Positions 2,214-10,081 of a stretch of DNA of 64,000 bases are shown here, in pieces. The notes under the pieces were generated by a model. The model searched no databases. It was given only the letters and a program-made list of their open reading frames with translations, and was not told the origin of the DNA. This DNA is from Sulfurimonas sp. HSL3-2 (GTDB lineage Bacteria > Campylobacterota > Campylobacteria > Campylobacterales > Sulfurimonadaceae). Every line of letters starts with the position of its first letter. The first letter of the stretch is position 1. The DNA is taken from NCBI RefSeq assembly GCF_039645965.1, contig NZ_CP147917.1, forward strand, positions 1,178,001 to 1,242,000, in the 5' to 3' direction. The position numbers were made by a program, and so were the translations under genes.

Positions 2214-4562
2214 TCAATCTTTTTTTTCTTCAACTACCACAACATTTCTTCCTTTAGCTTTCGCCTTGTAAAGAAGTTCATCGGTGTGGTTATAAAGAGC
2301 AGATTTATCGGTCGTCACTTTACTATTTTTACTAAAATCTATAAAACTGACCCCGATCGAGACGGTAACATAAGGTGAAATATTATTTGTTTTGTGCTCG
2401 ATCTTTTTCTCTTCTACCGACTTACGTATCTTATCCGTAAAGTCGTATATACTGTTCTTATCCTCTTCACTAAAGATCGCGCTAAACTCTTCTCCGCCTA
2501 TTCTAAAAGCGAAATCACCTGCCCTTTTCATATACTCTTTTAGTATATGTGCGATCATTTCAAGCACTTCATCACCCATCTGGTGTCCGTAAGTATCGTT
2601 ATACATCTTAAAGTTATCTACATCCAAAGAGAGCAGACAAAAAACTTTTTTCTCTCTTTTTACTCTCTTTATCTCAGTGTCAAATATATCATCAAAATAG
2701 CGTCTGTTATACAGTTTAGTCAAAGGGTCCGTGATCGAGATCGCCTCTAACTTCTTCCTGTTGGTAATATCTTGACGGATCGCGTTATAACCGATGATGT
2801 TTTTGTCATCGTCAAAATCCGGATATATACTCGTCTCGACCCAGTAGGACTGACCGTCTTTAGTTTGATTTTTAATCTCTCCGCGCCACATCTTGCCTTT
2901 TTGAATCGTCGCCCACAGGTCTTCATAGGTAGTCGCCGGCATATCCGGATGTCTGATAATATTGTACTCTTTGCCTATAAGCTCTTTAGCCGTATAACCT
3001 GTAAGTTTACAAAAAGCCTTACTGACACTTGTCGTTATCCCTTCAGTATCCGTATGGGAGATGATGACGTTCTCATCAACAAGTCTGATGTATTTATCAA
3101 GCTCTTTTTGTGCTTTTTTAAACTCGGTGATATCATGAGAAAAGATAGATATCTGAAGAACATTTCCGTCATTGTCGAGTATCGGGTAAAGATGATTTTT
3201 AAATATTTTCCCGTCTTGTTTCTCCTCATACATCAAAGGTTTTTTAGTTATAAGAAGTTCATTTATATATCTTCCTCTTAACTGTGAACTTTCTGCTGTA
3301 GAGAAATCAGAGATATATTTACCTTTTAGTCTGTCAGGAGTATTGTTTAAACGTTTGGAAGCTATATCATTTATTTCCAATATCCTTTCATCGACAGATA
3401 TCAGAATAATAGAGACGACAGGTGAGTTAAGAAGCGTTTTAATCGTCTGCTCGGTCTTGTTTCTTTCAGTAATATCGATACCGATAGCTATGATATATTC
3501 GATATTTCCATTTTCATCCAAAACACAGGAATTTGACCATGTAAAAGGGATGTGTGTTCCGTCTTTTACGATCCATGTATTCTCGTACGTATTTGGAAAA
3601 TCTCCTGTGACAAGACATGAAAATACCCTTTTTACCCTTTCTTGTTCTTCTTTGGGTATAAACATCTCCCAAGCCACCTTCCCTATGACTTCATTTTGAG
3701 TATAGCCTGTGAGTGTTTCTACTACTTTATTAGAAAGAACGACTTCGCCTTTAGGGTTCATAACAAGAACTATGCTGCTGGCCTGATCAAGCAGAGCACT
3801 GTGAAAGTCTCTCTCTTTTTTGAGTAAAGCAGATGAGTCTTGCAGTTTTTGCACTACATCATTGAGATTCCTGTTTCTCTGTGCTATCTGTTCTTGCATA
3901 ATACGCATTGCTTTTGACAAAATGGACATTTCATCCCCGTCTCTTCCCAGATTGGGGATTATGACTTGATCATCTTCTGCTATCTTCTCAGCAGATGATG
4001 TCAGTCTTTCCAATGAATGCGTCAATCTGTTTCCGATTATATAGACCGACATTGCACTCAATATAATCCCCAATAGACTGACTAAAAAAGTAAAGTTCCT
4101 GTTGTCCTCTATCGTCTTTAAACTGTCGGTGACCTCAAAGATGATCTTTGCACTGCCGATGGCTTTATCATGCATCTTGATAGGTAAAACACTCAGTATA
4201 AATGTCCTTCCCTCAGCTTCTACCTTCTTTGATCTTGCATCGAATATCTTTTTAGAAAGTTCTGCATCAATATGAACATGAGAGATGACTCTATTTTCTT
4301 TATCTAGTATCTCAACTGCGACTATGTTCTTGATATTTGTAAAGCTGTCGATCGCGTTATCAAGCGTTTTTTTATCATAGACTACAAGCGGTGCCTGTAT
4401 CAGTTCCGTAAAAAGCTTATTTGCAGTTTCGACCTTCTCATCGATCAATGATTTTGACAAGTTGTGTAATGATGAAAAATTATAAAATACGATAACAGAG
4501 ATAAATAGGACCTCCGTTACTATAAATGATAAAATAAACTTGTATTTTAATGATAATCTCAT
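2214..4562 (-). CDS. membrane PAS-PAS-PAS diguanylate cyclase
   Basis: This 782-residue protein should make cyclic di-GMP. Visible order: a membrane segment at about 8-28, a periplasmic region, a second membrane segment at about 158-178, a HAMP linker, three PAS domains between about 255 and 615, and a C-terminal GGDEF domain. The active-site motif is GGEEF at 689-693. The product-inhibition motif RxxD (RAGD, 680-683) sits five residues before it, so catalysis and feedback look intact. The third PAS contains IIRHPDMP, typical of Aer-type PAS domains that often bind FAD or haem, which suggests redox or oxygen sensing (inference). It is last in a tight operon after a GGDEF-EAL protein and a periplasmic binding protein. 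Confidence 0.9.
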   Translation of the reverse strand: MRLSLKYKFILSFIVTEVLFISVIVFYNFSSLHNLSKSLIDEKVETANKLFTELIQAPLVVYDKKTLDNAIDSFTNIKNIVAVEILDKENRVISHVHIDAELSKKIFDARSKKVEAEGRTFILSVLPIKMHDKAIGSAKIIFEVTDSLKTIEDNRNFTFLVSLLGIILSAMSVYIIGNRLTHSLERLTSSAEKIAEDDQVIIPNLGRDGDEMSILSKAMRIMQEQIAQRNRNLNDVVQKLQDSSALLKKERDFHSALLDQASSIVLVMNPKGEVVLSNKVVETLTGYTQNEVIGKVAWEMFIPKEEQERVKRVFSCLVTGDFPNTYENTWIVKDGTHIPFTWSNSCVLDENGNIEYIIAIGIDITERNKTEQTIKTLLNSPVVSIILISVDERILEINDIASKRLNNTPDRLKGKYISDFSTAESSQLRGRYINELLITKKPLMYEEKQDGKIFKNHLYPILDNDGNVLQISIFSHDITEFKKAQKELDKYIRLVDENVIISHTDTEGITTSVSKAFCKLTGYTAKELIGKEYNIIRHPDMPATTYEDLWATIQKGKMWRGEIKNQTKDGQSYWVETSIYPDFDDDKNIIGYNAIRQDITNRKKLEAISITDPLTKLYNRRYFDDIFDTEIKRVKREKKVFCLLSLDVDNFKMYNDTYGHQMGDEVLEMIAHILKEYMKRAGDFAFRIGGEEFSAIFSEEDKNSIYDFTDKIRKSVEEKKIEHKTNNISPYVTVSIGVSFIDFSKNSKVTTDKSALYNHTDELLYKAKAKGRNVVVVEEKKD

Positions 4563-4564
4563 AC

Positions 4565-7066
4565 TTACTCTTTACCTTTTGACAGATTCTCTTTTATAAA
4601 TATCTTCAACTCTTCAAGCGACAAAGGTTTAGAGTAGACATACCCTTGTATATCGTCGCAGTATTTGTCTTTAAAGAACTCTAACTGCTCTTCATTTTCT
4701 ACACCCTCTATGGTTATCTTAAGTCCGAAAGTGTTTGCCAGGGCAAGGATGGCTTTTACGACTGCGACACTCTCTATTGAATACGGCAGGTCGTCTACAA
4801 ATGCCTTGTCAACTTTTAAACGTGTGATCGGAAGTCTTTGCAGATAACTCATAGAGGAGTATCCTGTCCCAAAATCATCGATAGCAAGCTCGACACCCAT
4901 CTCTCTAAACTTTCCTAGAGTATCTATAGCTTTTATCTCGTTTGTAGCGATATAACTCTCGGTGACTTCAAGCTCGAGCTCGTGTGTGCCGATGCCGGTT
5001 TCTGCGATGACATCGCTTAGTGTCTTATAAAGATCACTGTAATGAAGCTGGATAGAGGAGATATTGACACTGATGTGTTCTAATATATAGCCCTCTTTTT
5101 TAAGTTTCATAAAGTCTTCACAGGCTTTATCCAATACCAATTTTCCGATCTCTATGATCATATGGGTATCTTCTGCGATCCCTATAAATTCACCGGGACT
5201 TACATGTCCTAAAGTAGCGCTGTTCCATCTGACAAGCGCTTCAATACCGACTATCTTCTCAGTCGCTATAGATACTTTCGGTTGATAGACCAGCATAAAC
5301 TCATCTTTGTTTTTAAGTGCATATTTCAGCGCATTTATTGTCTTTGTACGTTTTTCCAAGAACTCTGCAAGTTCCACAGAGAAAAAGCTGTAGTTGTTTC
5401 TTCCCTTGTCTTTTGACCTATACATCGCCAAGTCGGCATTTTTTATAAGCGTGACGGAGTCTGTCCCATGATCGGGATAAATCGCGACGCCTATACTCGC
5501 CGTAGTACTTATCTCAAAATCGCCGCATTGAAAGATCTTTTCAAACTGTCTTAACAGATTTTTTGCGAGATCTTCTACATATTGGATATTATCGAAATTT
5601 TCAACATATAATTTGAACTCATCTCCGCCAACTCTGGCAAACACCGCTTTGTCTACCAAAAATTCTACTAATCTGTCCGAGACTTTCTGCAGCAGTTCAT
5701 CTCCTACATTGTGTCCTAACGTGTCGTTTACCTGTTTAAACTGGTCTAAGTCTAAAAAGAAAAGTGCGACTTTATGCCCTTGATGTTCAGCCGCATAAGT
5801 AAGAGCTTCGTTAAAACTGTCATCAAATGCCCTTCTATTGAGCAGATTTGTAAGTTCATCATGATTTGAAAGATATTCCAATTTTTTTTGCGACTCTTTC
5901 AGCTCTTTTTCACGGTTATGTACAGCTTTTGCCAGATCATTTATATTGACGGATATCTCTTGTAGCTCATCTCCGCTTTTTATTATCTCGGATTCGGAAT
6001 AATCACCGCTTTCGATTTTAAAAATATTTTTCATCAACCTGTTTAGAGGTTTAGATAGATTGAAGTTCAGCAGATAATAAAGCACTATCAACGTGACCAT
6101 CGTTATCAAGATCAAAAAGAGTACCAGCTCTATCCTGTTTTTATTAAGTGCACTGTTTAGTATCGATTTATCCAGCGAGATGACTATATTTAAAGGCAGT
6201 TCTTTAGTGACTACGATAAAAGAGCTGTAATACTGTAGATCCGACTGAGTAATATCGATATCATCCAGATCCGATTTATCTAAAAGGCTTAGTCTATCAT
6301 TTGTATATTTGCTGTCGGGAGTCATAAATACTTTCATATTCAGATTTTTTGAAATGTTCTGAAAGTAGTTGTCATCTATCTTATAAGACATCTCTATGTG
6401 CGATGTAGAGACACCTTTTTTATCAAACATGCTTTTATGCGACTTTATATAGAGACTGCCGTTTATATAGTGATATGTGATAAGCGTTCTGTCTTTTAGT
6501 TCAGGCTGTTTATAATACAGGATATGTTTATAGTTGATATCCTTTGTATAGTCATCGAGAGAACTCTTTTTATAAAGATCCTCAAACTCGTATTTTGAAT
6601 ATATGACCGGTTTGGAGTTTTCATAGGAAACATAGTTTAACTTGTAGTCTTTGTCATCTTTAAAGACAAAGGCTATGAGTTCTGCATTTTTATCATATAA
6701 CGCGATATCTGAGTTAAAAGATATCTTCACCCTTCTTAAAAGCTGAAGGGCTATATCTTTTTTCTCTTCATCAAGCAATACGGCATTATAATGTTTTTTA
6801 TTTTGGTAATTATTTATCAGTGCTATAGATGCCTTCATAGTCCTATCGTCTTGGATAAAACTCACCCCTTTTATAAGGTCCTGTTCTTTGTTTTTTATAT
6901 CAAAATAGATCTTCTCTTTAGCATTGCTTATGCGCTGTTTTGCATCCTCAAAATAGATATTTTTTAAAAACTCGTCAAAGTAAAAACCCAATACGCCGAT
7001 CGACGTAATTATTGAAAAGAGTGTTATTAAAGATATTTTAGTCGTTAGTTTAAATTTCATTATCAA
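4565..7066 (-). CDS. membrane GGDEF-EAL bifunctional c-di-GMP protein
   Basis: This 833-residue protein has a membrane segment at about 8-25, a periplasmic sensor region of about 275 residues, a second membrane helix at about 306-328, HAMP, GGDEF and EAL domains. GGDEF is intact (residues 480-484), but no RxxD inhibition site precedes it. The EAL domain keeps E609-A-L, SVNISSIQL, EVTES and IDDFGTGYSS, so phosphodiesterase activity is plausible; the net activity cannot be read. Its start overlaps the upstream binding-protein stop by 4 bases and its stop lies 2 bases before the cyclase start, so the three genes are probably one transcript. The periplasmic region may read out the binding protein (inference). 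Confidence 0.9.
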   Translation of the reverse strand: MIMKFKLTTKISLITLFSIITSIGVLGFYFDEFLKNIYFEDAKQRISNAKEKIYFDIKNKEQDLIKGVSFIQDDRTMKASIALINNYQNKKHYNAVLLDEEKKDIALQLLRRVKISFNSDIALYDKNAELIAFVFKDDKDYKLNYVSYENSKPVIYSKYEFEDLYKKSSLDDYTKDINYKHILYYKQPELKDRTLITYHYINGSLYIKSHKSMFDKKGVSTSHIEMSYKIDDNYFQNISKNLNMKVFMTPDSKYTNDRLSLLDKSDLDDIDITQSDLQYYSSFIVVTKELPLNIVISLDKSILNSALNKNRIELVLFLILITMVTLIVLYYLLNFNLSKPLNRLMKNIFKIESGDYSESEIIKSGDELQEISVNINDLAKAVHNREKELKESQKKLEYLSNHDELTNLLNRRAFDDSFNEALTYAAEHQGHKVALFFLDLDQFKQVNDTLGHNVGDELLQKVSDRLVEFLVDKAVFARVGGDEFKLYVENFDNIQYVEDLAKNLLRQFEKIFQCGDFEISTTASIGVAIYPDHGTDSVTLIKNADLAMYRSKDKGRNNYSFFSVELAEFLEKRTKTINALKYALKNKDEFMLVYQPKVSIATEKIVGIEALVRWNSATLGHVSPGEFIGIAEDTHMIIEIGKLVLDKACEDFMKLKKEGYILEHISVNISSIQLHYSDLYKTLSDVIAETGIGTHELELEVTESYIATNEIKAIDTLGKFREMGVELAIDDFGTGYSSMSYLQRLPITRLKVDKAFVDDLPYSIESVAVVKAILALANTFGLKITIEGVENEEQLEFFKDKYCDDIQGYVYSKPLSLEELKIFIKENLSKGKE

Positions 7067-7965
7067 AATATCGGTTCCACTCTTTCAACGTTTTCCTTTG
7101 TGACCAGTTTCACCGGTATAAAAATATGTTTTGGTATTTTCTTATCGGCAAATATCTTCACCGCTATATCCACCGCCTGCTTAGAACCAAGCGGAAAGAG
7201 GATCGAACCTGTCTGTGTCCCGTTTCTGATCGCTTCTTTGGCTTCACTCGTATAATCGCAACCGATCATTATGATCTTTGAAGGGTCCATGTCAAATCTT
7301 AAAAGTGCGCTTCGTACTCCGCTTAACATACTGTCGCTTTCTGAAAAGATCGCATCTACATGTACGCCCTCTTGTATAAGCTTCTGCATCTCCACAATAG
7401 CATCGCGTCTCAGATAGTTTCCTGTTCGTTTGATGACTTTTATATCTTTATATTTTGATATCTCATCCAAAAAACCCTTACTTCTCAGGTGTGTGACATC
7501 GGCTTTTTGCAGACCTTCAAAAAGTAAGACCATCCCTTTATAGTTCAGTTTTTTCGCTATATACTTAGCACCGATAGAACCGATTTTTATATTATCGGAG
7601 TTTATAAAGGTGGTGTACTCCTGAGAGTTTATACCTCTATCCAATACTATGACAGGTATCCCGCTTTTATAGGCTTTTGTCACGACAGGTACAACAGCAT
7701 CAGCATCGTTTGTCCCTAAAATGATAAGATCGACCCTCTTTTCTATAAACTCGTTTATCTGATAAATAAGAAGTGAGGTCTTCCCTTTCGCGTCTGAATA
7801 TACGAACTTCCAGTCTTTATGTTTTAACACAGCGTCTCTGGCTTCGAAGACCTGGGCCTTACGAAAGTCGTTTGCCATATTGTCCTGAGCGAATGCGATG
7901 AATTTTACTCCACTTGCATAAGTCGATATAAAGAGTAGCAAAAGCGTGAAAATAACCCTTAGCAT
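7063..7965 (-). CDS. periplasmic sugar-type binding protein, no transporter nearby
   Basis: About 300 residues resembling the RbsB/LuxP class of periplasmic binding proteins (type I fold). An N-terminal signal peptide (MLRVIFTLLLLFISTYASG) is followed by sequence with the alternating pattern of two Rossmann-like lobes, including VDLIILGTNDADAV and VIVLDRGI. I chose the ATG at 7965, which has a GGAG ribosome site about 10 bases upstream; a TTG at 7989 would add eight residues before the signal peptide. No ABC permease or ATPase is adjacent. It is co-transcribed with two c-di-GMP enzymes, so a sensory role like LuxP with LuxQ is more likely than uptake (inference). Ligand unknown. Confidence 0.8.
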   Translation of the reverse strand: MLRVIFTLLLLFISTYASGVKFIAFAQDNMANDFRKAQVFEARDAVLKHKDWKFVYSDAKGKTSLLIYQINEFIEKRVDLIILGTNDADAVVPVVTKAYKSGIPVIVLDRGINSQEYTTFINSDNIKIGSIGAKYIAKKLNYKGMVLLFEGLQKADVTHLRSKGFLDEISKYKDIKVIKRTGNYLRRDAIVEMQKLIQEGVHVDAIFSESDSMLSGVRSALLRFDMDPSKIIMIGCDYTSEAKEAIRNGTQTGSILFPLGSKQAVDIAVKIFADKKIPKHIFIPVKLVTKENVERVEPIF

Positions 7966-8133
7966 ATAATTTAAACTCCAATCACTCAAAACTCATACAA
8001 TATTGTCTATATAATATCTATATCTTTGTAAATCTATACTTTAAAAATCGTCGTGGAATTTTAGCATAAAGTAAAATATGTAACTAATTTTGTTATTATT
8101 CTGAACAATCATCTTTTTTACTGGAAAAGTTCT

Positions 8134-9378
8134 ATGAAATATGAAGATACGCATTTATTATTGACGGATTCTCTTACCTATTTAAAAAGCAGAGTATCTT
8201 TAGTCCAAGATGTTTTAAATATGCGTATCGGAAACTTGATCTTAATAGATATAGACAACTTCAACTCCATTAACAATCTTTACGGCATGGAATCAGGGGA
8301 TACGGTCCTTATAGAGACGGCAAACTATATTAAGCAGGTCGCCCAAGAGAGAGGATATGAAGCGTACCGTGTCACTTCCAATGAGTTCGCTCTGTTGGAC
8401 TATGATGCAAAAATCGATTTTGAAGACATCTATGAGGATGTTCAAAATATAATAGAACAGATGTCAAAGTATGATATATACTTAGATGCTATCAGCGACA
8501 TCATAAACATACATGTCACCATAGGCTTTGCAACAGCAGAAGATATGATACTTGAAAAAGCCAGCAGCGCCTTGCAGCATGCTAAAAAGAACTACCTTAA
8601 ATTTTCGGCGTATTCAAATATAACAAACGACATCAAGACTCTCTCAAACTATATCTACTGGAACAACGAGATCAAAAAAGCGATCGAAAACGACAATATA
8701 CAGCCATTTTTTCAGCCGATCCTCAACAGAGACGAGAAGATCATAAAGCATGAAGTACTTATGCGTCTTGTCCAAGATAACGGAGCGGAAAAGACCTACG
8801 TCTCGCCTGTCCAGTTTTTAGATATATCCATACAGACCAAAAGATATAACGAACTCTCCAAGATCATCATCTTTAAAGCACTAAATATGCTAAAGACCAG
8901 TGAGAACTCTTTTTCCATCAACTTCGCCTATCAGGATATAAAAAACAAAGAGCTTATCCACTCACTTTATAGATTTTTAGAAGAGAATCCCGATGTGGCA
9001 AAACGCTGTACATTCGAGATACTAGAAAGCGAACTCATCGAAGACACTCAGATGCTGCTTTCGTTTATAAACAAGGTCAGAAAGTACGGTGTACAGATAG
9101 CCATCGATGATTTTGGAATCGGGTTTTCAAATCTTGAGATGATACTTTCAAGCCAGCCTGACATCATAAAGATAGACGGCAGTCTGGTTAAGAATGTAGA
9201 TATAGACTCCAAAGCTCTTACTTTAGTCGAAGCGATAGTCGCATTTTCACATAAGATGGGCATAAAAGTCGTTGCTGAATATGTCCACAGCAAAGAGGTA
9301 TACGACATCTTAAAAAATACGGATGTTGATATGTTTCAAGGATATTACTTTTCTAAACCCGTGTTTACTCCTAATTAG
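8134..9378 (+). CDS. cytosolic degenerate-GGDEF / EAL protein
   Basis: A 414-residue soluble protein with an N-terminal GGDEF-like domain and a C-terminal EAL domain. The cyclase signature is replaced by TSNEF (81-85), so synthesis is probably lost; such domains often only bind GTP. The EAL domain has E207-V-L-M-R, a FEILESE motif, IDDFGIGFS and KIDGSLVK, so the main metal-binding acidic residues are present and phosphodiesterase activity is plausible. No membrane segment or separate sensor domain is visible. It diverges from the three-gene c-di-GMP operon across a 168-base AT-rich gap, which suggests shared control. A GGAAAAG ribosome site precedes the ATG. Confidence 0.88.
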   Translation: MKYEDTHLLLTDSLTYLKSRVSLVQDVLNMRIGNLILIDIDNFNSINNLYGMESGDTVLIETANYIKQVAQERGYEAYRVTSNEFALLDYDAKIDFEDIYEDVQNIIEQMSKYDIYLDAISDIINIHVTIGFATAEDMILEKASSALQHAKKNYLKFSAYSNITNDIKTLSNYIYWNNEIKKAIENDNIQPFFQPILNRDEKIIKHEVLMRLVQDNGAEKTYVSPVQFLDISIQTKRYNELSKIIIFKALNMLKTSENSFSINFAYQDIKNKELIHSLYRFLEENPDVAKRCTFEILESELIEDTQMLLSFINKVRKYGVQIAIDDFGIGFSNLEMILSSQPDIIKIDGSLVKNVDIDSKALTLVEAIVAFSHKMGIKVVAEYVHSKEVYDILKNTDVDMFQGYYFSKPVFTPN

Positions 9379-9391
9379 CTACAATTTTGGT

Positions 9392-10081
9392 ATGCAGTCA
9401 AATAACATAATCGAGATCTCATCTTGTAGCTTTAAATACCAGCAAAATGAAAAAAATACATTAGATATGGAACCCTTACATGTAAGAAGCGGTGAACATA
9501 TCTTTTTGCATGGTAAAAGCGGAAGCGGCAAGACTACATTTTTAAACATACTATGCGGTATTATCGAACCCGATGAGAACGATATCAAGATACTTCAAAC
9601 AGATTTTACAAGACTTTCAGCATCACAAAAAGACAGATTTCGCGCCGATAACTACGGGACGATATTTCAACAGTTCAATCTTCTGCCTTATCTCAGTGTA
9701 AAAGAAAACATATCTCTTGCCTGTGGGTTTTCAAAACAAAAATCCTTACATGTAAGCGATATGGACTCTGAAATAAAAAGACTTCTTGATGCCTTAGATC
9801 TCTCACCTGCTCTGCTACATACTCCCGCTATGAACCTAAGTGTGGGTGAACAGCAGCGTGTGGCAGTCGCACGCGCACTTATCGGCTCTCCTAAGATCAT
9901 CATCGCGGATGAACCGACCTCCGCACTAGACAGCGATACAAAAGAGAGGTTTATGGAACTGCTTTTTGCACAAGTAGAGGCGCAAGACTCGACGCTTATC
10001 TTCGTAAGCCACGACAGATCACTCTCTTCATACTTTGAAACACATTACGATTTTGCAGATATAAACAGGGCTGTCAAATGA
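9392..10081 (+). CDS. ABC transporter ATP-binding protein, LolD/MacB class
   Basis: About 229 residues. Walker A is GKSGSGKT (residues 41-48), the Q-loop is in FQQFNLLPYLS, the signature is LSVGEQQR and Walker B is [12 protein letters not shown]. This composition fits ATPases that drive FtsX-like permeases (LolD, MacB, DevA). I start it at the ATG at 9392, just after the stop of the EAL gene; an upstream start would overlap that gene. The next gene overlaps by 4 bases and encodes the matching permease. It carries two exact TTACATGTAA palindromes, both read as Leu-His-Val. Confidence 0.88.
   Translation: MQSNNIIEISSCSFKYQQNEKNTLDMEPLHVRSGEHIFLHGKSGSGKTTFLNILCGIIEPDENDIKILQTDFTRLSASQKDRFRADNYGTIFQQFNLLPYLSVKENISLACGFSKQKSLHVSDMDSEIKRLLDALDLSPALLHTPAMNLSVGEQQRVAVARALIGSPKIIIADEPTSALDSDTKERFMELLFAQVEAQDSTLIFVSHDRSLSSYFETHYDFADINRAVK
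9476..9485. repeat. TTACATGTAA palindrome family, first exact copy
   Basis: Exact copies start at 9476, 9746, 15212, 17665, 30489, 37410, 48878, 50330 and 60914. Copies with one end base changed start at 15158, 38804, 49855, 54980, 59689 and 59701. They occur in genes on both strands and in gaps. Confidence 0.8.

Follow-up and report, generated by a model that had tools for sequence, protein, structure and literature searches.

An orphan sugar-type binding protein and its neighbouring membrane GGDEF-EAL sensor in Sulfurimonas look like a reusable periplasmic sensing unit

Positions 2214 to 9378 of the window, by which we mean the whole 64,000-nt stretch of Sulfurimonas sp. HSL3-2 DNA that was analysed, contain four genes, three on the minus strand and one diverging from them. 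The gene for a periplasmic binding protein (SBP) overlaps that for a membrane GGDEF-EAL protein by 4 nt, a gap of 2 nt separates the latter from a PAS-cyclase gene on the same strand, and the divergent gene encodes an EAL protein, which is the arrangement described in an earlier reading made from the letters alone (the sequence-only reading). The genes and their parts are:

7063-7965, minus strand: SBP gene, 300 aa with signal peptide, ATG start at 7965, PF13407 (Peripla_BP_4) at E 7e-43; a type-I Peripla_BP_4 protein, ribose/fructose/galactofuranose-like, orphan and periplasmic, putative sensory ligand-binding partner
4565-7066, minus strand: GGDEF-EAL membrane sensor gene, 833 aa
6152-6976, minus strand: periplasmic domain of the sensor, about residues 31-305, predicted divergent dCACHE and predicted SBP-docking domain
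6692-6832, minus strand: sensor residues 79-125, ASxxLINxYQxKxNYNxxLxDEEKK, the part of the sensor domain with the strongest conservation
5918-6061, minus strand: HAMP-like linker of the sensor, residues 336-383
5393-5869, minus strand: GGDEF domain of the sensor, RVGGDEF intact, RxxD I-site absent
4625-5335, minus strand: EAL domain of the sensor, full catalytic motif set (EAL, N, E, DDFGTG, K, EGVE, QGY)
2214-4562, minus strand: PAS-cyclase gene, CHASE8-like/PAS3/GGDEF, GGEEF with RAGD I-site; outside the core unit
8134-9378, plus strand: EAL protein gene, degenerate GGDEF (TSNEF) and EVL-type EAL domain, phosphodiesterase candidate; outside the core unit

Besides PF13407 the SBP matches PF13377 weakly in Pfam; no PotD-type match was found in Pfam or NCBIfam, and the NCBIfam TorT model, at 34 bits against a cut-off of 200, does not identify it as TorT. 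The neighbouring ABC ATPase frame (window 9323-10081) has its first ATG inside the EAL gene, and its true start is probably near 9395, since relatives begin later (227-230 aa).

To find out how widely the SBP occurs with its neighbour, we took the SBP family as the sole query and searched about 85,000 species genomes, obtaining 80 loci. In 79 of these the gene that follows on the SBP gene's own strand encodes a sensor with a homologous periplasmic domain; the gap is at most 70 nt in 76 loci, and overlaps of 1 or 4 nt are frequent. The single SBP relative without an adjacent sensor (L152) counts against the two-protein unit that we propose below. Within the order (299 genomes), SBP homologues (E<1e-50) adjoin a membrane sensor wherever the contig permits, except for one Campylobacterales locus (L052), which likewise counts against our proposal. 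In the reciprocal search of the same 299 genomes, all 12 strong matches to the periplasmic domain (E<1e-20) lay beside an SBP homologue. Gene order rules out a chance adjacency of the SBP and its GGDEF-EAL partner and shows their pairing to be near-obligate; the co-conservation that the sequence-only reading had asked for is thus seen from both sides. The pair occurs in Campylobacterota, beta- and gammaproteobacteria and cable bacteria, with Sulfurimonas, Sulfuricurvum, Sulfurovum, Gallionella, Sideroxydans, Rhodoferax, Hydrogenovibrio, Oceanospirillum and Candidatus Electrothrix among its carriers; because many of the carriers are metagenome-assembled genomes, single names (for example the Chitinophaga bin L120) may result from faulty binning. 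Mirror-tree comparison of the SBP with the periplasmic domain gave r 0.91 overall and r 0.68 for 64 close pairs, and none of 2000 within-phylum permutations reached the observed value (maximum r 0.45); by this measure the two trees track each other beyond phylum. In both trees the gammaproteobacterial carriers L094 and L098 group with the lineage of the window, which suggests that the pair moved together by horizontal transfer.

Several observations were made alongside. In Candidatus Electrothrix aarhusensis (L100:5974-9615) the sensor gene consists of two open frames of 270 and 567 aa, broken past the periplasmic domain, which may reflect a frameshift, an assembly error or a genuine split. 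One locus (L081:2328-5817) carries, divergent from the family's own pair, a second pair made of a distant Peripla_BP_4 protein (24% identity) and a PAS-GGDEF-EAL protein. GltX, phosphomannomutase and some other genes upstream were considered as parts of the unit and rejected, each being present in few loci only.

What lies behind the membrane is less constant than the pair itself. Among the 79 relatives the sensor output is GGDEF-EAL in 64 (some with PAS, two seen in part only) and a histidine kinase in 15 (some hybrid). On the SBP tree (87 rows) the output label switches at least 10 times, five of these switches being required by well-supported branches; the periplasmic-domain tree shows 10 changes, six of them forced; both trees come from quick searches. 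As read from these trees, the output is exchanged behind a conserved SBP and sensor domain, and the unit of inheritance is the SBP-sensor pair, not the output. The motif calls of the sequence-only reading, GGEEF with RAGD in the PAS protein and complete GGDEF and EAL motifs in the sensor, were correct, and both catalytic motif sets are intact at sequence level in the window's sensor as well as in nearly all relatives, from which we infer that the sensor may switch between both activities. A precedent for such switching is the NspS-MbaA system of Vibrio cholerae and Sinorhizobium meliloti, in which an orphan SBP, depending on whether its ligand is bound, shifts a bifunctional GGDEF-EAL enzyme between cyclase and phosphodiesterase activity (PMC8967002, PMC9993111). 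The alternative that we take most seriously is that the GGDEF-EAL output works one way in the cell, as phosphodiesterase only or cyclase only, with the other domain serving as a nucleotide-binding regulator. It would agree with the general experience that many GGDEF-EAL proteins work in one direction in vivo although their motifs are intact, with the phosphodiesterase DibA being the best-scoring curated model for the window's protein, and with the missing RxxD I-site, which 36 of 61 relatives have and whose absence here counts against our own proposal. Set against this, the motifs of both domains are preserved almost throughout the family and NspS-MbaA is switchable, and we regard one-way output as a real possibility with a less than even chance.

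We then considered how the SBP might act on the sensor. An AF2 model of the periplasmic domain with its TM helices, built from 75 sequences, reached pLDDT 93 and pTM 0.83, and its Foldseek matches are dCACHE domains (vpHK1S-Z8, Mlp24, TlpQ and DctB, with LuxQ, 3c30, at rank 46). The Pfam dCache models and the LuxQ-periplasm model did not match the sensor domain, and its sequence-level matches among solved structures were, apart from noise, confined to the HAMP/TM2 region. Known dCACHE structures align with the domain at modest TM-scores, none above 0.5, and it is therefore predicted to be a divergent dCACHE member at the level of fold. Residues 79-125, with the NYNxxLxDEEKK motif, are kept in kinase and GGDEF-EAL versions alike and would be a candidate docking or switch element. 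For the complex, whose modelling the sequence-only reading had suggested as a check, we used the ortholog from Oceanospirillum beijerinckii (L134), an in-frame locus that can be read through its intergenic stops as one SBP-linker-sensor chain. We had fixed beforehand that a pTM of about 0.45-0.52 would indicate undocked and at least 0.65 docked partners; the co-fold reached a pTM of 0.82, where undocked domains would be expected to give about 0.48, and a pLDDT of 90, while the linker (316-372) was disordered. This model of an ortholog supports docking of the SBP on the dCACHE domain of the sensor, short of proof, because the tether is non-native and the alignment rows are mostly unpaired, with nine truly paired. 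A different arrangement, in which the dCACHE domain binds a small ligand of its own and the SBP is an accessory (scavenger or sensitizer), or each receives a different signal, would be in keeping with the fact that most dCACHE domains themselves bind ligands, and the conserved motif at 79-125 could line a pocket. We consider it unlikely in view of the absence of strong sensor-domain matches without an SBP neighbour (0 of 12), the correlated trees and the high confidence of the predicted docking.

The sequence-only reading had treated all four genes as one c-di-GMP module, which synteny does not bear out: the conserved unit is the SBP and the sensor, and the PAS-cyclase and EAL genes are separable from it. 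When we searched for PAS-cyclase homologues (E<=1e-60; N-terminal half), each of the 11 other loci with checked flanks had a PF12974 SBP upstream, and the PF12974 proteins at these loci share 57-70% identity with that of the same-genus genome G323, used as reference. This second conserved pair, in which a phosphonate-binding-type SBP gene immediately precedes the PAS-cyclase sensor gene, is found at L187:10689-13848, L186:5230-8410 and L177-L185. In the window, the SBP-sensor pair and the PAS-cyclase are present and the PF12974 gene is missing; elsewhere in the genome a single strong PF12974 match remains, as part of an HD-GYP/GGDEF protein. This natural fusion of PF12974, GAF, HD-GYP and GGDEF (871 aa; L191:475-3090, in the own genome C1:1533474-1536089) has an SBP wired to c-di-GMP within a single chain. 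Because of the PF12974 gene upstream in 11 of 11 other loci, the PAS-cyclase is, going by gene neighbourhood, the sensor of another SBP-sensor pair, the SBP of which was lost here; as a sensor left without its SBP, it may be signal-blind or constitutive in the window's organism.

Within the genus, G148 has the EAL gene (75%), the PF12974 protein and the PAS-cyclase (67%) in the absence of the SBP-sensor pair, and G334 and G339 have the EAL gene alone, without the other three. The EAL gene is syntenic with an ABC/FtsX/DUF3299 cluster in the genus, and the ABC/FtsX neighbours are kept with or without the pair in all cases seen. Since both genes occur without the pair in the genus, their position beside it may be due to chance. 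That the SBP, the bifunctional enzyme, the PAS-cyclase and the EAL protein nevertheless form one integrated circuit would fit the 2-nt spacing between the sensor and PAS-cyclase genes and the co-occurrence of all four genes in the window and in one genome of the same genus (G323, identical with L101, which also has the PF12974 gene). Given the separate occurrences in G148, G334 and G339, the PAS-cyclase's own SBP in all other homologues checked, and the fact that no relative besides L101 has both neighbours beside the pair, we hold a four-gene circuit to be improbable.

The genome is a single contig of 2.24 Mb (99.98% complete), in which we found no match to the CUT2-type permease family PF02653 (BPD_transp_2), while the same search was positive in 12 of 14 control genomes; the SBP of the window is the only PF13407 match genome-wide, with no second Peripla_BP_4 protein. 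By this census the SBP is a true orphan, as the sequence-only reading had maintained, and an ABC transporter elsewhere, which that reading had named as grounds for abandoning its view, is absent for the CUT2 class, since there are no BPD_transp_2 permeases and most controls were positive. Although Peripla_BP_4 proteins are mostly SBPs of ABC transporters and the type-I fold fits CUT2 systems, we find it scarcely credible that the SBP is a component of a transporter whose permease lies elsewhere and which is merely co-regulated with the sensor, given that the cognate PF02653 permease is missing from this near-complete genome and no transporter gene was recognised among the pair's examined neighbours except one MFS gene (L131). 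A separate group of SBPs in Campylobacterales (L068-L077, about 25% identity) mostly adjoins sensor kinases or GGDEF-EAL proteins, and orphan sensory SBPs seem to be common in this order.

As to the ligand, the nearest solved relatives of the SBP bind ribose, fructose (the BT1754 sensor), galactofuranose or arabinose. Eleven residues that we take, from alignment with RbsB and YtfQ, to be of pocket type (Q27, D28, N32, D33, R35, D109, R110, R161, N183, D211 and D237) are nearly invariant among 68 close relatives, and this near-invariance suggests one ligand class for all of them. No LuxP or LsrB model matched the SBP, though the library may not include a LuxP model. In 10 loci from two phyla the SBP gene has a LamB-type sugar porin gene as its neighbour, which lies directly upstream on the same strand within 45 nt in L080, L085, L087-L091, L115 and L116 and on the opposite strand in L086; the resulting porin-SBP-sensor cassette is seen in Campylobacterota and Gallionella relatives. 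LamB was not found in the window's own genome, which counts against our proposal. Our best guess is that the ligand would be a sugar, perhaps in its furanose form.

Taken as a whole, the evidence makes it quite probable that the SBP and the dCACHE sensor form a two-protein periplasmic sensing unit gating c-di-GMP. In the periplasm the SBP would capture a small, sugar-like ligand, and one of its conformational states would dock on the dCACHE domain carried by the membrane protein encoded next to it; the signal would be relayed via TM2 and HAMP and shift the cytoplasmic GGDEF-EAL part between cyclase and phosphodiesterase activity, so that external sugar would set c-di-GMP. By analogy with NspS-MbaA, the docked SBP may favour the cyclase state. 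The SBP and the dCACHE domain would travel as one cassette with an exchangeable output behind the membrane.

It is established that SBPs act on receptors of diverse kinds (PMC9602780). NspS-MbaA, a transporter-less SBP and a TM-periplasmic-TM-GGDEF-EAL protein encoded by overlapping genes (PMC8967002, PMC9993111), resembles the window's orphan SBP gene with its 4-nt overlap onto a membrane GGDEF-EAL gene, and is our working model and the nearest functional precedent. However, NspS is PotD-like and binds polyamines, whereas the window's SBP belongs to the type-I sugar family, and the window's sensor-domain family also drives histidine kinases and spans several phyla; since its SBP is of another class, the family is no member of the NspS-MbaA system. 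The LuxP/LuxQ-like logic proposed in the sequence-only reading holds for the combination of a type-I SBP with a dCACHE-type sensor domain, at the level of fold, and for the predicted docking; LuxPQ is thus a fold analogue and not the nearest functional precedent, with LuxQ feeding a phosphorelay and the window's sensor c-di-GMP through GGDEF-EAL, a kinase being found in 15 of the 79 relatives. In XylFII-LytS, ChvE-VirA and TorT-TorS, sugar-family (XylFII, ChvE) or related SBPs also act on a sensor, and 5xsj, 5xss and 5xsd, which we take to be XylFII-type entries, are among the profile matches of the SBP; these three systems have kinase outputs only and different sensor domains. Of the two solved structures closest to the SBP, one is the Peripla_BP_4-like sensor domain of the fructose-responsive hybrid two-component system BT1754 (2x7x), but there the binding domain is inside the kinase chain, whereas the window's SBP is a separate secreted protein. 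We found no described pair of a sugar SBP and a GGDEF-EAL protein in the open-access literature, and this family is a new and unusually well-delimited variant of SBP-receptor signalling.

Studied examples of a pair linking an SBP to c-di-GMP are few, and our literature search brought up a single one, NspS-MbaA, which senses polyamines. Being spread over several phyla and sometimes joined to a kinase output, the pair described here looks like a reusable, undescribed sensing unit, carried by dozens of sulphur- and iron-cycling and related water bacteria. This large and taxonomically broad set keeps the SBP and sensor domain while the output changes, and docking and signal passage can therefore be tested apart from the output. 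A general lesson is that annotation of Peripla_BP_4 proteins as transporter parts by default is unwarranted. Many of the carrier chemolithotrophs probably do not live on sugars, and the data suggest that sugars are nonetheless sensed by oxidisers of sulphur and iron, of which at least one has no sugar-uptake permease of the CUT2 class. The chances seem evenly balanced that the pair is a horizontally spread sugar-SBP/dCACHE cassette with interchangeable outputs, sometimes with its own LamB porin, by which aquatic chemolithotrophs would detect sugar or carbohydrate released by neighbours in the decision between biofilm and motility; sugar sensing by such oxidisers is relevant to the way in which autotrophs settle within mixed biofilms.
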